Assembly: GCA_019635965.1 (NCBI GenBank)
Contig: JAHBYK010000004.1
Span: 1-64,000 of the forward strand
DNA length: 64,000 nt
Direction: 5' to 3'
Source of the DNA: Parvibaculum sp.
GTDB lineage: Bacteria > Pseudomonadota > Alphaproteobacteria > Parvibaculales > Parvibaculaceae
Both the position numbers and the translations under genes were made by a program. This document shows, piece after piece, positions 28,281 through 39,007 of this stretch. Below the pieces are notes generated by a model. The model was not told the DNA's origin. It saw only the letters and a program-made list of their open reading frames with translations, and did not search any database. Each line of letters begins with the position of its first letter. Positions within the stretch are counted from its first letter, which is position 1.

Positions 28281-29177
28281 TCAGGGGCTGAAGCCTGGCG
28301 GTGTGACCGGGGCTTCGCGCAGCAGAACGATGGAAAGCCGGCGGTTCGCGGCCATGTAGGGGTCTTCCGGGAACAGAGGTTCCGAGTCCGCCTTGCCGAC
28401 AACCTGGTAAATCCGGTCGTTGCTCAGTCCCGCATTTTCCAGGATGCGGCGTGTCGCATTGGCGCGGTCCGATGTGAGTTCCCAATTCGAGTACCCAGCG
28501 CGCCCGGCGACCGGGTTGGCATCGGTGTGACCGGAAACGCTGACCCGGTTCGGCAGCTTGATGAGAATCTTCGCAACTTCGTCGATCAGCTTGCGCGTAC
28601 GCTCATAGGGCTCCGCCAATCCCGAAGGAAACATGGAGCGGCCGTCCTGATCGACGATCTGGATGCGCAGACCTTCGGGGGTTTCGTCGATGATGACGTT
28701 GCGCGAGAGTTCCGCAAGATCGGGATTTTCGCGCATCGACTGCCGGATGCTTTCGGCGGCACTGCGGAAGTTCTGTTCGTCCCTCGCGGACTTCTCCTTC
28801 ATGAGCTTGTCCATCTGGGCCGCCTTGGCCGCTTCCTCGCGTTCGACTTCCGGGCTGCGGGGCTGCGCCGGCGTCGAGATCGTCATCACGACCTGCGGCT
28901 TGGTGCCCGGCATGCGCGAGCCTTCCTGATCGAAGGCTGTGCCGCCCATGATGCCGCCTGCGCCGCTGGTCGAGCGGCTGACATTGGACGGGGCAAAATA
29001 GTCGGCCAGACCCTGCTTCTGCTCCGGCGTGGTCATGCTGATGAGCCACATGAGCAGGAAGAAGGCCATCATGGCCGTCACGAAGTCGGCGTAAGCGATC
29101 TTCCACGCGCCGCCATGATGGCCGTGAACGACTTTCTTGACCTTCTTTAGGATTATCGGCTGTTCGTTGGTGGCCAT
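28281..29177 (-). CDS. motB: flagellar motor stator protein MotB
   Basis: Stator subunit that anchors MotA to peptidoglycan and carries the proton-binding Asp. The 298 residues start with a basic segment, then one membrane helix AYADFVTAMMAFFLLMWL with the critical Asp, a plug region, and an OmpA-like peptidoglycan-binding domain (about 165-290) with VSVSGHTDANP and NRRLSIVLL. It follows motA by 18 bases. Confidence 0.95.
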   Translation of the reverse strand: MATNEQPIILKKVKKVVHGHHGGAWKIAYADFVTAMMAFFLLMWLISMTTPEQKQGLADYFAPSNVSRSTSGAGGIMGGTAFDQEGSRMPGTKPQVVMTISTPAQPRSPEVEREEAAKAAQMDKLMKEKSARDEQNFRSAAESIRQSMRENPDLAELSRNVIIDETPEGLRIQIVDQDGRSMFPSGLAEPYERTRKLIDEVAKILIKLPNRVSVSGHTDANPVAGRAGYSNWELTSDRANATRRILENAGLSNDRIYQVVGKADSEPLFPEDPYMAANRRLSIVLLREAPVTPPGFSP

Positions 29178-29195
29178 TTGTACCCGCTCCGCGGC

Positions 29196-30059
29196 CTAGC
29201 CTGCGGCCTGCAACGAGGCGGTTGCCTGCTCGACTTCCGTGAACGAGGGGCGGACGTCCGACATCAGCGCCTTGCGGGCGAACTCGATGGATACGGCGGG
29301 CGCATAGCCGGCCATGTGGGCCAGGAGTCCTGCCTTCATCGACAGAAAATATTTCGACTCGGCTTCATAGGTATTGCGCAGCGACTGCGCCATGGGCCCG
29401 AAGAAGCCATAGGCGACGAACACGCCGAGGAAGGTGCCGACCAGAGCGCCGCCAATCAGGTGGCCAAGGATCTCCGGCGGCTGGTCGATGGCGCCCATCG
29501 TCTTGATAACGCCGAGCACCGCAGCGACGATGCCGAGCGCAGGGGTGCCGTCAGCCAGGGCCTGGATCGATGCGACGATGCGCTCGCGTTCCTGATGATG
29601 GGTTTCAAGCTCCTCATCCATCAGTGCTTCCAGCTCGTGCGCATTCTCGGTGCCGAGGGTAATCATGCGAAGGTAATCGCACATGAACTCGACGGCATGA
29701 TGGTCTGAGGTGAATTTGGGAAACTGCCCAAAGATGGCGCTTTCCGAAGGATTTTCGACATGCGCTTCGAGTGCCAGGTTGCCTTTGCTCTTGGCGAGCT
29801 TGAAGAGCGTGTACTGCAGGCCCAGCAACTCGAGAAAGGCATCCTTGTCATAGCGGGGGCCCTTGAACAGCGATCCGAAGATGCTGCCCACCGCCTTCAG
29901 CACTGCCGGGGGGTTGGCGATACAGAAGGCGCCAATGGCGGCACCCAGGATGATGACCGCCTCGAAGGGCTGCCAAAGCACTTCGATGTGACCGCCCATG
30001 GCCATGTAGCCGCCAAAGACGCTCATCAAGACCACAACAATGCCGATGATCAGCCGCAT
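29196..30059 (-). CDS. motA: flagellar motor stator protein MotA
   Basis: Ring-forming stator subunit that works against FliG. The 287 residues have four helices: LIIGIVVVLMSVFGGYMAMGG at the start, the second at about 30-50, then about 170-190 (GIVAAVLGVIKTMG) and 200-225. ALMDEELETHHQE lies in the cytoplasmic loop that contacts FliG. The frame runs up to 30110, but the ATG at 30059 matches the usual MotA N-terminus and length. No other flagellar gene is nearby. Confidence 0.95.
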   Translation of the reverse strand: MRLIIGIVVVLMSVFGGYMAMGGHIEVLWQPFEAVIILGAAIGAFCIANPPAVLKAVGSIFGSLFKGPRYDKDAFLELLGLQYTLFKLAKSKGNLALEAHVENPSESAIFGQFPKFTSDHHAVEFMCDYLRMITLGTENAHELEALMDEELETHHQERERIVASIQALADGTPALGIVAAVLGVIKTMGAIDQPPEILGHLIGGALVGTFLGVFVAYGFFGPMAQSLRNTYEAESKYFLSMKAGLLAHMAGYAPAVSIEFARKALMSDVRPSFTEVEQATASLQAAG

Positions 30060-30332
30060 ATGCCCAAGTACTTTCTTGCACGTTGCTCCACGGCTGCCCG
30101 CGATAAGCAAGACCGCCCCACCTGAAGCCTCATCATCGCGGGAGGCCCCTTAACAGCGGGTTTAACCAAATTGGCGGAAGGCAGGATTCCGTGATGATTT
30201 GCACGAATTTCGGCGGCTTTGCGTGACATGATGTTGCGCGGATGGCCGTGCCTGGCCTAAACCGGAAAAAGTTGTTAACGAGAGATTGACGGCCCGGACA
30301 TCTGCACCGGGTGGCATTGGAGCGAGCAAACG

Positions 30333-31615: not shown

Positions 31616-32392
31616 ATGCCTGAGGAAAATCTTGTAGTTGAAGGTGCTGCAAACGAGGCTTCGGAGGCGGCCAATGCCGGTACCGACGGCGTCGCCGGGG
31701 CGGCCGATGTGCTAGCGGCTTCGGGCGGCGGGGACGTCTGGTACTCGGTCGGGTCGCTGATCGACAAGGGCGGGCCAATCGTCGCTATCCTGCTTGTTCT
31801 GTCGGTCATTTCGCTGGCTGTAATCCTGCTCAAGGTCTTCCAGTTCTGGTCGGCCGGTCTTTCGAAGCGGAGCTTCGTTGACCCGGCGGTCGACCGGATC
31901 GAGGCGGGCGATCTCGCGGGCGCGCTCGACATTCTCAAAAAGCACAAGACACCGCTTGCCCGCGCGATGGCGGCCGGTGTCCGCGCCAAGATGCGCGGCG
32001 ACCTGCGCGACGAGGATGTAGCCTCGGAAATTTCACGCGTGGGCACGATGGAGATCGGTTCGCTGCAGCGCTATTTGCGCTGGCTTGAAGTGATCGGCAA
32101 TATTTCGCCGCTGCTCGGCCTGCTCGGCACCGTCATTGGCATGATCAATGCCTTCCAGAGCCTCGAGGCGGCGGGTACACAGGTCGACCCGGCGCTGCTT
32201 TCAGGTGGCATCTGGGTGGCGCTGCTCACCACCGCCGTCGGTCTCATTGTCGCGCTACCCGCTATTACCGCGCTCAATCTGCTCGAGGGCAAGATTGACC
32301 AGGTCCGCCTGTCGATGCGCGATGCGGCTTCCCGCGTCATTGCGGCGCTGCATGTGCGGCCAGCTGGCGCTCAGTCGAGAGCGGCACAGTAA
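31616..32392 (+). CDS. exbB: MotA/TolQ/ExbB proton channel family protein
   Basis: Channel-forming subunit of a proton-driven motor in the inner membrane. The 258 residues have a polar N-terminal segment of about 40 residues, a first helix (about 53-76, GPIVAILLVLSVISLAVILL), a cytoplasmic loop, and two helices (about 155-180 LGLLGTVIGMINAFQ and 196-222 GGIWVALLTTAVGLIVALPAI) with the family motifs LGLLGTVIGM and TAVGL. It leads a four-gene operon with two ExbD and a TonB-like gene. TolQ is less likely because tolA, tolB and pal do not follow. Confidence 0.9.
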   Translation: MPEENLVVEGAANEASEAANAGTDGVAGAADVLAASGGGDVWYSVGSLIDKGGPIVAILLVLSVISLAVILLKVFQFWSAGLSKRSFVDPAVDRIEAGDLAGALDILKKHKTPLARAMAAGVRAKMRGDLRDEDVASEISRVGTMEIGSLQRYLRWLEVIGNISPLLGLLGTVIGMINAFQSLEAAGTQVDPALLSGGIWVALLTTAVGLIVALPAITALNLLEGKIDQVRLSMRDAASRVIAALHVRPAGAQSRAAQ

Positions 32393-32407
32393 GGCGCGAG
32401 GTTCGCC

Positions 32408-32815
32408 ATGTTTGAAGAACCTGTCCGCCGAAGAGGAATGGCGAGTCTGACACCGCTTATCGACGTGGTGTTTCTGCTGCTCATCTTCTTCATGCTGACG
32501 ACGTCGTTCCTGCAGACGCAGTCGCTCGCCGTGGTGACCCCCGCGCCGAGTGCGGACGAGCTGCCAACCGATGCGCGCGTCATAGAAATCTGGCTGCTGG
32601 GCGATGAAACGATCGCCATTGACGGCCAGCCGGTTGCGCGTGACGTGCTGGCTGAAAGCCTGAAACAGGCAATAGGCGAGCGCACCGACCTGACGGTTAC
32701 GATTCTCGCCGAGAAGGGGTCAAAGACGCAGGCACTCATTGCGGCCATCGAGGCGGCACGACAGTCGGGTGCGAAAAGCGTCGGGACCGCAAGAGTCGAA
32801 AGGATCGCAAGATGA
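32408..32815 (+). CDS. exbD: ExbD/TolR family protein (first copy, catalytic Asp present)
   Basis: A 135-residue one-helix subunit whose helix (about 14-35) begins LTPLIDVVFLLLIFF. Asp19 is the proton-carrying residue equivalent to ExbD Asp25 of E. coli. The periplasmic domain spans about 45-135. It is 15 bases after exbB and overlaps the next exbD by four bases (ATGA). Confidence 0.92.
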   Translation: MFEEPVRRRGMASLTPLIDVVFLLLIFFMLTTSFLQTQSLAVVTPAPSADELPTDARVIEIWLLGDETIAIDGQPVARDVLAESLKQAIGERTDLTVTILAEKGSKTQALIAAIEAARQSGAKSVGTARVERIAR

Positions 32816-33216
32816 TCGAATTCGACCAGGAGCCGCCGCGCAGGCAATTCGAGACGCTGATCCCGCTTATCAATGTCGTATTCCTGCTGCTGATCTTCTT
32901 CCTGCTCGCGGGGACGATGCAACCGGCGGACAATGTCGCGGTGACTCTGCCCAAGGGGGCGCTCAACGACAAGGAACGCGAGCTTCCGGCGACGCTGATC
33001 GTCGAGGCGGACGGCTTCGTGTGGCTGGGCGACAGGGTGATGGATGCGAAGCTTGCGGGGCATTTCGTCAAGCAGCATCTGGGTGAGGAAGGCGCGCGCC
33101 GGGTTGCCGTGAAGGCGGACCGGGATGCGCCTGCCGAAGCCGTGCTCGAACTCATGGAGGGTCTGCGCGAAGCGGGCGTCGAACAGGTCACGCTTGTTAC
33201 GGAGCGCGGCTCATGA
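32812..33216 (+). CDS. ExbD/TolR family protein (second copy, Asp replaced by Asn)
   Basis: A 134-residue homologue of the preceding protein with the same layout, but its helix begins LIPLINVVFLLLIFF: codon AAT at 32872-32874 puts Asn21 where the proton-carrying Asp should be. In E. coli ExbD the Asp-to-Asn change abolishes activity, so this subunit probably cannot carry protons itself. The rest of the helix and the periplasmic domain look intact, arguing against a decaying gene. Overlaps both neighbours by four bases. Confidence 0.92.
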   Translation: MIEFDQEPPRRQFETLIPLINVVFLLLIFFLLAGTMQPADNVAVTLPKGALNDKERELPATLIVEADGFVWLGDRVMDAKLAGHFVKQHLGEEGARRVAVKADRDAPAEAVLELMEGLREAGVEQVTLVTERGS

Positions 33217-34061
33217 ACACGATATCATCATATTCCGGCGGCGGGACGGAGCCGCGCGAACTCAATATTCGCAAGTTCATCGTCGTTTCGCTGCTACTTC
33301 ATGCGTTGCTGTTTCTTTCCTTTCTCCTGACGTTCGGCGGCATTTTCGGAGGACCGGGGCCGGGCGGTGGGGAGTCCGTCACCTTCCAGCTTGCTGCGGG
33401 TTCGGCAAATGATCTTTACGCCGCGCCGCCCGAGCCGGTTGTCGAGCCGGAACCGCAACCCGAGCCGGAGCCTGTGAAACTGCCGGAGCCGAAGCCGGAA
33501 ACGGTTGTGCGCAAGGAGGACAAGCCATTGCCGCCGCCGGAAGAGATTCCCGAACCGGTACAGGAGGCGGTAAAGCCCGCGGCGCCGGCCGGTGGCGGCA
33601 TTCAGGATGGCATGGCGGGCGGCGCCGGCGGAGATGCGGCGGAGACGATCCTGAACAAGAAGGGGGACTCGCTGACCGCGGGACAAATTCGCTCGCAGAT
33701 GTCTGGCAAGACCTTTCATCTCGAGATGGGCCGGCTCGATCTGCAGGGCGGCAACCGGCTTATCAATACGATCATTGCGCTCGATCCGGGCGGTACGACC
33801 AAGGTTGAGCTGATCCAGTATTTTTTCCAGACCTATCATCGTGCCAACTCCTCCACGCGCAGCCGAAGGGGCACCGGCCAATGGTGGATCGAGGGGAATC
33901 GCTGGTGCCACAAGTCCGAGGAGATCCAGTACAACACGACGGACTGCTACGACATGACCCTCGAGGGAAATATCGTCCGTCTCTATTACGGCCCTTGCAC
34001 ACAGCAGTCATCGACGCTTTGCAAGGCCGGACGCCTCGCCGCGGAGGGAGAAATCCGCTAG
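33213..34061 (+). CDS. TonB-like protein with an unusual Cys-containing C-terminal domain
   Basis: A 282-residue protein with a TonB architecture at first: short cytoplasmic segment, one membrane helix (about 24-46), then a Pro/Glu/Lys-rich spacer (about 65-125) of the PEPQPEPEP type that could span the periplasm. The C-terminal part (about 145-282) does not show the TonB box-binding fold. It contains GQWWIEGNRWC, NTTDCYDMTLEGN, VRLYYGPC and LCKAGRLA, with four cysteines that could form two disulfides. This pattern recalls small extracytoplasmic DUF995-like domains, as a guess. Coupled to the upstream exbD by ATGA. Confidence 0.8.
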   Translation: MNTISSYSGGGTEPRELNIRKFIVVSLLLHALLFLSFLLTFGGIFGGPGPGGGESVTFQLAAGSANDLYAAPPEPVVEPEPQPEPEPVKLPEPKPETVVRKEDKPLPPPEEIPEPVQEAVKPAAPAGGGIQDGMAGGAGGDAAETILNKKGDSLTAGQIRSQMSGKTFHLEMGRLDLQGGNRLINTIIALDPGGTTKVELIQYFFQTYHRANSSTRSRRGTGQWWIEGNRWCHKSEEIQYNTTDCYDMTLEGNIVRLYYGPCTQQSSTLCKAGRLAAEGEIR

Positions 34062-34124: not shown

Positions 34125-34994
34125 ATGAGCAAGGTTGCATTCATCGGGCTTGGCGTTATGGGATTTCCGATGGCGGGGCATCTTGCCAGGGCCGGACATG
34201 ACGTCACTGTTTTCAATCGTACCACGGCCAAGGCCGAGGCTTGGGTGAAGACACATGACGGCAACGCGGCAGCAACGCCGAGGGCGGCTGCTCATCGCGC
34301 GGAGTTTGTTTTTGCCTGTGTTGGCAATGACGACGATCTGCGTGAGGTGACGGCAGGACCCGATGGCGCATTTCATGGCATGGATCCGGGCGCGATATTT
34401 GTCGATCACACCACGGCATCGGCGGCTGTCGCGCGCGAGCTTCATGCGGCGGCGGCAGCGCGTGGCATTTCCTTCATCGACGCGCCGGTTTCGGGCGGAC
34501 AGGCGGGCGCCGAGAATGGTGTTCTTACGGTAATGGCGGGGGGCGAGGCCTCGGCCTTCGACAAGGCGGCGCCGGTCATTTCCGCCTATGCAAGGATGGT
34601 GAAGCTTCTTGGCCCTTCCGGCGCCGGCCAGCTGACCAAAATGGTGAACCAGATTTGCATTGCGGGGCTCGTGGAAGGGCTTGCCGAGGGGCTTCATTTT
34701 GCCAGGAAGGCCGGTCTCGATGCGGAAGCCGTGATCGAGACGATTTCCAAGGGCGCAGCGCAGAGCTGGCAAATGGAAAACCGTTACAAGACAATGATAG
34801 AGGGCAGGTTCGACTTCGGTTTCGCTGTGGACTGGATGCGCAAGGATCTGTCGATCTGTCTCGATGAGGCGCGGCGGAACGGCGCGCAGCTTCCAGTGAC
34901 GGCGCTGGTCGATCAGTTCTATTCCGAGGTGCAGGCGATGGGCGGCAATCGCTGGGATACATCAAGCCTCATCGCGCGGCTGGAGAAACCATGA
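34125..34994 (+). CDS. NAD(P)-dependent beta-hydroxyacid dehydrogenase
   Basis: A 289-residue member of the 3-hydroxyisobutyrate dehydrogenase/tartronate semialdehyde reductase family. The Rossmann motif GLGVMGFPMAGHLARAG starts at residue 7, the substrate-binding DAPVSGGQAGAENG and the catalytic Lys in GQLTKMVNQ are present. It lacks the SSGQCW-type motif of true MmsB seen at 40085-40975, so its substrate differs, and GarR or succinic-semialdehyde reductase activities are possible. Its stop overlaps the decarboxylase start (ATGA). Confidence 0.85.
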   Translation: MSKVAFIGLGVMGFPMAGHLARAGHDVTVFNRTTAKAEAWVKTHDGNAAATPRAAAHRAEFVFACVGNDDDLREVTAGPDGAFHGMDPGAIFVDHTTASAAVARELHAAAAARGISFIDAPVSGGQAGAENGVLTVMAGGEASAFDKAAPVISAYARMVKLLGPSGAGQLTKMVNQICIAGLVEGLAEGLHFARKAGLDAEAVIETISKGAAQSWQMENRYKTMIEGRFDFGFAVDWMRKDLSICLDEARRNGAQLPVTALVDQFYSEVQAMGGNRWDTSSLIARLEKP

Positions 34995-36139
34995 CGGCAT
35001 TGGATTCGGATCTGCGTTTTTCATCGATCGCTGAAGTCATAGAGCGGCTCGAACCGTCATACCCGGTGTTCTGCATTTTTCCGGATGTTCTGCGCGCGCG
35101 TGCAAAGGCTTTCGTCGAGGGATTTCCCGGTACGGTTCTCTACGCGGTGAAATGCAATCCGCATCCCTATGTGCTTGAGGCGCTGGCAGAGGGCGGTATT
35201 TCGCACTTCGATACGGCGTCGATTACCGAGATTGCAACCATCGCAAGGCTGATGCCCGAGGCACGTTGCTATTTCAATCATCCGGTGAAGGGGCGCGGCG
35301 CGCTTGACGCCGCAGCGAAAGTCTATGGTCTTGAAGATTATGTCGTCGATCACGCGGACGAGCTCGACAAGCTGATCTCGATTGCCGGTACGGACATCAC
35401 CGTTGAAGTTCGCATTGCGACGCCCAAGGGCAAGGCGGTCTACGATCTGTCGGCGAAGTTCGGTGCGACACCGGATGATGCGGCAGCGCTTCTGAAGGAG
35501 GCAAGGCAGCGCGGCTGCCGGACGGCGCTTGCCTTTCACGTCGGCAGCCAATGCACCGATCCCTCGGCCTTTCGTGTGGCGATCGAGCTTGCGGCAAAGG
35601 TGCGTGATAAAGCGGGCGTACCGCTCGAATATCTCGATGTGGGAGGCGGGTTCCCGGCGATCCACAAGATGAATGTTCCGCCGCTCGCCGATTATTTCGG
35701 CGCAATTGCCCGTGCGTGTGACGAATTCGGTTTCGACATTCCACTTCTTGCAGAACCAGGCCGGGCCCTGGTTGCCGATGGCTGCTCCGTGCTGACGCAG
35801 GTGCATCTCAGGAAAGGCGATGATCTCTACATCAATGACGGGATCTATGGTTGCCTTTCCGAAATCCGGGATGGAGATCTGGACCCGCCAGTCCGGGCGG
35901 TCACGCGGGCTGGTCCACTTGCTGGTCCGACTCAGCCCTTTCGTATCTTCGGCCCGACTTGCGACAGCCTGGACGTTCTCAAGCTGCCATTTCATTTGCC
36001 GGAGACGATCAGTGAAGGTGACTGGATCGAGTTCGGGCAGATGGGCGCCTATTCGATTGGAATGCAAACCGGTTTCAATGGTTTCATCACCGATACGATC
36101 GTTCGCATTGCCGGGATGCACGAAGAGTTCGTTTACTAA
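34991..36139 (+). CDS. type III PLP-dependent decarboxylase (ornithine decarboxylase-like)
   Basis: A 382-residue fold-III (alanine racemase-like) enzyme. PLP binds Lys54 in YAVKCNP, the glycine-rich GGGFP and the phosphate-binding EPGRALV are present, and CDSLD carries the catalytic Cys and substrate-binding Asp of ornithine/lysine decarboxylases. HVGSQC is also typical. Ornithine is the likeliest substrate, giving putrescine, but lysine or both are possible. Coupled to the dehydrogenase before it. Confidence 0.85.
   Translation: MTALDSDLRFSSIAEVIERLEPSYPVFCIFPDVLRARAKAFVEGFPGTVLYAVKCNPHPYVLEALAEGGISHFDTASITEIATIARLMPEARCYFNHPVKGRGALDAAAKVYGLEDYVVDHADELDKLISIAGTDITVEVRIATPKGKAVYDLSAKFGATPDDAAALLKEARQRGCRTALAFHVGSQCTDPSAFRVAIELAAKVRDKAGVPLEYLDVGGGFPAIHKMNVPPLADYFGAIARACDEFGFDIPLLAEPGRALVADGCSVLTQVHLRKGDDLYINDGIYGCLSEIRDGDLDPPVRAVTRAGPLAGPTQPFRIFGPTCDSLDVLKLPFHLPETISEGDWIEFGQMGAYSIGMQTGFNGFITDTIVRIAGMHEEFVY

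Positions 36140-36243: not shown

Positions 36244-39007
<2,764 letters not shown>

Follow-up and report, generated by a model that had tools for sequence, protein, structure and literature searches.

A conserved tandem of Asp-type and Asn-type ExbD in Alphaproteobacteria: a candidate single-site Ton motor

The way in which protons set the axle of the ExbBD, TolQR and MotAB motors turning, or pull on it, is unsettled, and the models consulted place two acidic sites on a dimer of identical subunits. The window analysed here, a stretch of 64,000 nucleotides from a Parvibaculum-like draft genome (75% complete), contains an operon in the order exbB, exbD1, exbD2, tonB-like (31616-34061, + strand), in which the second ExbD protein has Asn at the position of the proton-carrying Asp. 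The locus raises the question of how the two proteins are combined in the axle, and how many proton sites such a motor would have.

The operon and its two ExbD proteins

The features of the operon are as follows.

31616..32392, + strand: ExbB/TolQ-type proton channel subunit, 258 aa (Pfam MotA_ExbB, 9.6e-31; can be aligned to TolQ and ExbB chains of known structure)
32408..32815, + strand: ExbD1, the Asp-type subunit, 135 aa (Pfam ExbD, 8.9e-22; Asp clade of the pair family)
32426..32434, + strand: Arg7-Arg8-Arg9 of ExbD1, the basic cytoplasmic helix end (compare the charge average of first copies)
32462..32464, + strand: GAC, Asp19 of ExbD1, the proton-carrying residue (Asp in all first copies read)
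32812..32815, + strand: ATGA overlap of the exbD1 stop and the exbD2 start
32812..33216, + strand: ExbD2, the Asn-type subunit, 134 aa (Pfam ExbD, 1.4e-19; Asn clade; ExbD periplasmic fold)
32851..32853, + strand: Glu14 of ExbD2, an acid seven residues before the Asn (acidic in 80% of Asn-type copies and 0% of their Asp partners)
32872..32874, + strand: AAT, Asn21 of ExbD2, replacing the Asp at the proton-carrying position
33213..34061, + strand: TonB-like protein, 282 aa, with an SxxxH transmembrane helix, a Pro/Glu-rich stretch and a C-terminal domain other than TonB_C
33660..34058, + strand: C-terminal domain of the TonB-like protein, GxWWIEGNRWCH...DCYDMT...C, containing cysteines and seen only in families f1, f120 and f160

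The MotA_ExbB domain of the first protein (106.6 bits against a cut-off of 22.9) places it in the ExbB/TolQ/MotA channel family, and it has Val at the site of the TM3 Glu of E. coli TolQ and ExbB (GIWVALLTTAVGL). The transmembrane helix reads PLID with Asp19 in ExbD1 (SLTPLIDVVFLLLIFFML) and PLIN with Asn21 in ExbD2 (TLIPLINVVFLLLIFFLL), and the Pfam ExbD domain spans almost all of each protein (78.0 and 70.8 bits, respectively, against a cut-off of 25.4). ExbD1 therefore has both the ExbD domain and the Asp in its single transmembrane helix that mark the ExbD/TolR family, whereas ExbD2 has the domain and the periplasmic fold but Asn21 instead of the Asp. When the ExbD2 profile was compared with solved ExbD chains, residues 15-131 matched (7ajq at 4.7e-14), and its AlphaFold single-chain model (mean pLDDT 65; the models rested on shallow alignments) matched the ExbD periplasmic fold, with 8pek at 1.6e-6. 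The residues and coordinates given in the sequence-only reading are correct, and its further claims that the pair is translationally coupled and that the periplasmic domain is intact in both copies are borne out by the ATGA overlap, by the nearly full-length domain matches and, for ExbD2, also by the fold match. The overlap between exbD2 and the tonB-like gene (33213-33216) is likewise ATGA. A second motor of the same superfamily, MotA/MotB, is encoded 1.5 kb from the operon on the minus strand (28281-30110), and MotA/MotB genes also neighbour the ExbB operon at locus L166.

Distribution and ancestry of the Asp/Asn pair

Whether the second copy is consistently Asn in orthologues, a question that the sequence-only reading had posed, can be answered from the order as well as from a wider survey. 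Within the order, 40 genomes were searched and 30 loci read, all of which have Asp in the first copy and Asn in the second, and Asn21 is an invariant column in the ExbD2 alignment of these 30 orthologues. For the wider survey, 386 class genomes were searched with a profile and 397 genomes of the phylum with a DNA pattern matching the Asn helix; Pfam ExbD was also run against 153 class genomes, 40 of which were then searched in full. Asp was found in every first copy read, and among the 87 operons of the family the pair is Asp/Asn in 85, Asp/Ser in one (L047) and Asp/Asp in one (L137). Asp in most second-copy homologues, the state named as contrary to the sequence-only reading, is thus not what true orthologues have; apart from L137, Asp in both copies belongs to other tandem ExbD families. 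An even sample of the class, which omits one further tandem pair (G069), gave 38 tandem pairs, 19 of them Asp/Asn and 19, including L137, Asp/Asp. The DNA pattern matched 29 genomes, of which four matches were not ExbD and 25 were real (23 inside the class and two outside), and an Asp-type gene lies directly upstream in all 25. No surveyed operon has Asn in the first copy or in a lone ExbD, and L137 provides the only Asp-type copy of the pair clade without an Asn-type partner, its partner being Asp. Named carriers of the Asp/Asn pair include Leisingera sp. S132 (WP_260018949.1 and WP_260018950.1), Phaeobacter inhibens M631 (WP_260084999.1 and WP_260084998.1) and Tritonibacter mobilis, on plasmid p2.

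Three unusual loci were also observed. The second copy of L047 (genome G332) reads PLISVVF, and nothing in this genome matches TonB_C or a TonB-dependent receptor. In L137 (G142) the second copy reads PLIDVSMF, which is either an ancestral state kept or a reversion. Both ExbD helices of L049 (G156) lie in one frame of 294 codons; a frameshift seems to have altered the end of the Asp copy, and this in-frame Asp-Asn fusion was set aside as a likely draft-genome frameshift.

A quick tree, built after masking this residue, resolves the pair family into two sister clades, one of Asp and one of Asn copies, with 53 rows in each (supports 81 and 85); TolR-like singles fall outside both, as do two further types of Asp/Asp tandem. 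Since the two copies fall in sister clades, the pair is old. Constraining the 52 Asn/Ser rows together, with L137 outside, gave a likelihood better than that of the free search, and the AU test does not reject such an unbroken clade (p-AU 0.907). A single ancient duplication and one change from Asp to Asn would account for the data. The Asn codons are 44 AAC and 41 AAT: the third base has drifted freely whereas the first base, a single change from Asp, has been held, and with it the residue.

Tandem exbD genes and the need for Asp25 are already known. The tonB1-exbB1-exbD1-exbD2 genes of Sphingobium SYK-6 resemble the present operon in having two adjacent exbD genes beside one exbB; in contrast, both of these tandem copies retain Asp25 (PMC8599685), and all Asp/Asp pairs that were read except L137 form separate groups in the tree. 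The Myxococcus AglRQS system (PMC9389320) and the TolQ-vWA pairs (PMC12204202) also have two distinct axle genes for a single pentamer gene, but there both axle proteins retain the Asp. Compared with the ExbB5-ExbD2-TonB motor of E. coli and Serratia, the operon shares the ExbB-type subunit, the ExbD helix and periplasmic fold, the TonB-type transducer and, in relatives, the linked receptors, whereas it differs in its two exbD genes, the second with Asn for Asp25, in the Val of the window ExbB in place of the TM3 Glu, and in the C-terminal domain of the TonB-like protein of the window's group. No description of an Asp/Asn ExbD pair was found in the full-text literature searched, a weak result as most subscription journals lay outside it, and the pairing appears to be new.

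Composition of the axle and the proton path

The two helices were compared in 64 Asp/Asn or Asp/Ser pairs left after close relatives had been thinned. The helix core is equally strict in Asn and Asp copies (P-3, I-1, F+3, F+8, F+9), while the cytoplasmic helix ends are opposite in charge: the net charge at positions -10 to -6 averages +1.42 for first copies against -0.83 for second ones, and the first copy is the more positive in 57 of the 64 pairs, although kinship among the sequences means that such charge and pair counts overstate the number of independent events. In Asp/Asp pairs, the mean charge over these positions is negative in both copies, and single ExbD/TolR proteins have an acidic residue eight positions before the Asp in 89%. 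By comparison, the Asp copy of the pair family has no N-terminal acid and is basic instead, and it is the Asn copy that is acidic, at -7. The polarity is swapped between the partners in the L058 lineage, as compensation would predict, in a single case; a few lineages have helix-end charges that are not complementary.

Two further ideas were rejected. A substitute acid in the Asn-type helix was sought from -6 to +13 and none was found, except for one case at -6; the acid at -7, near the cytoplasmic end, could at most shape proton exit. Co-variation with the TM3 Glu of ExbB is not strict, this Glu being present in 36 of the 63 Asp/Asn systems read. In ExbB of family f120, we note Glu or Gln directly after the conserved TM3 Thr (LLTTEVGL, LLTTQVGL and LFATQVGL in L044, L045 and L047), where most relatives have Ala.

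The 1:1 linkage, the fixed order, the overlapping genes, the equally strict helix cores and the charge pattern together favour a heterodimer, and the axle of this Ton motor is probably an obligate ExbD1/ExbD2 (Asp/Asn) heterodimer in an ExbB pentamer. Such an axle would have one acidic, and therefore one proton, site per complex, versus the two of an ExbD1 homodimer. The asymmetric motor put forward in the sequence-only reading is supported in part: linkage, order, coupling and helix-end charges favour the partnership from which it would follow. Three observations count against the heterodimer. The helix-end charges fail to complement each other in the few lineages noted above. E. coli ExbD D25N is inactive (PMC11658791); both copies are Asn in that mutant, yet one Asn partner might also block the motor. 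Moreover, the Asp/Asp member L137 indicates that Asn is not indispensable everywhere.

It is possible that ExbD2 is a structural or regulatory subunit, as the sequence-only reading had also suggested. Set out as a motor, this would mean that an ExbD1 homodimer (Asp/Asp) does the work and that ExbD2 is an accessory outside its proton path, e.g., a periplasmic adaptor to TonB or peptidoglycan, or a partner in an idle ExbB complex that limits activity. Each copy does have its own intact periplasmic ExbD domain, and a single ExbD suffices in E. coli. We nevertheless consider this unlikely, since a mere anchor would not need a helix core as strictly conserved as that of the Asp copy, the loss of the ordinary N-terminal acid from the Asp copies and its presence in the Asn copies look like those of partners, and the Asp-type copies of this clade always occur with an Asn-type partner, apart from L137 with its Asp. 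Less probable still is a mixed pool of ExbD1 homodimers and ExbD1/ExbD2 heterodimers, in a ratio that would adjust force and proton leak and make ExbD2 a brake or gearing subunit; co-translation and the neutral Asn fit this, and ExbD1 homodimers are compatible with all the data, whereas the charge pattern and the invariant pairing point to obligate partners. Hardly any weight can be given to the Asn as a neutral relic or sequencing error in a decaying second copy, because many families retain it and its codon has drifted only synonymously, which rules out chance or decay, and the rest of the helix is near-invariant.

If the axle is the obligate Asp/Asn heterodimer in a 5:2 assembly, the Asp of ExbD1 would bind the proton, and the fixed, neutral Asn of ExbD2 would resemble a permanently protonated Asp. 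In the same motor class, Asn mimics a protonated Asp in the MotB D22N structure (PMC9389320). A proton from the periplasm would neutralise Asp19 and free the axle, and its release into the cytoplasm would reset it. In the cycle set out in a review of 5:2 motors, occupancy swaps between the two sites, each proton turns the axle by 36 degrees and a full turn takes 10 protons; in another 5:2 model, both sites must be protonated before the axle can rotate (PMC9389320). Since the site of ExbD2 never changes charge, the two-site alternating cycle could not run in the heterodimer; instead, each proton may carry the axle on by one ExbB subunit, a step of 72 degrees that makes five protons per turn, or the axle may rock without full turns. 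In the model that needs both sites protonated, the Asn would count as protonated, such that protonation of the one Asp would license movement. This natural variant therefore tests the published 5:2 models that alternate two acidic sites: a one-site Ton motor, if true, would make full two-site alternation unnecessary, and a comparison of Asp/Asn systems with their Asp/Asp relatives could yield the proton cost per step. As the two subunits differ, each axle helix can also be labelled or mutated singly, for which a homodimer needs engineering.

Uptake setting and the TonB-like transducer

Receptors adjoin the Asp/Asn operon in several relatives, and the window genome has four TonB-dependent receptors, none of them on the window's contig. 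In at least two genomes listed as complete (G065 and G570, each 100%), the only ExbD genes are the Asp/Asn pair and one TolR-like copy, the sole TonB_C match lies within the operon, and the sole TonB-dependent receptor, which scores above the cut-off of the heme-receptor model TIGR01785, stands beside it. In G570 the order is exbB-exbD-exbD-tonB-receptor-hemS-binding protein-permease, the binding protein being periplasmic and the permease of the FecCD type. A siderophore-type receptor adjoins the operon in G230, and the neighbours of the Phaeobacter pair are a receptor, an ABC importer and an adenosylcobinamide amidohydrolase. Because the sole non-Tol ExbD stands beside the sole TonB_C protein and the sole receptor, uptake across the outer membrane is, as judged by gene content, very probably powered by the Asp/Asn motor, and force would be passed through TonB to receptors of the heme, siderophore or cobalamin type.

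A possible experimental counterpart is the hmu cluster of the roseobacter Ruegeria TM1040, described by Hogle et al. TM1040 has a single receptor, which it requires for growth on heme, and the heme cluster contains exbB, exbD1, tonB and exbD1a, a duplicate of exbD1; iron stress raised its expression 41- to 201-fold (PMC5225302). The cluster resembles that of G570 in gene content; the paper treats the second exbD as a duplicate and, in the portions consulted, makes no mention of an Asp/Asn difference (PMC5225302). In the literature searched, no mutant of either exbD was found. On balance we lean towards an ancient branch of Ton systems, common in Alphaproteobacteria, that runs on a single-site obligate Asp/Asn motor with half the protons of a two-site motor and is the only Ton motor of some hosts.

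Most other Asp/Asn operons end in an ordinary TonB with TonB_C, whereas in three alphaproteobacterial families (f1, f120 and f160, Parvibaculum-like) a different C-terminal domain replaces it. The TonB-like protein of the window has the SxxxH motif of TonB, with Ser26 and His30 invariant in nine sequences, and shows no TonB_C match. Its C-terminal domain matched no Pfam family even at E 10, and the model of this domain is beta-rich at low confidence (mean pLDDT 47.8), with no significant fold match. In these families force would be passed to the TonB-like protein, and it is plausible that the changed domain contacts another outer-membrane or periplasmic partner.

Downstream of the operon, behind a 3-hydroxyisobutyrate-dehydrogenase-like gene, lies a gene for a PLP-dependent decarboxylase of the ornithine/diaminopimelate type (34991-36139), and a similar gene is found downstream in the distant family f120 (L044, L045, L047 and L165), such that this linkage is conserved. 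A hemB-like gene (porphobilinogen synthase, called by eye; 36699-37844) is also near the operon, as it is in L165 and L166.
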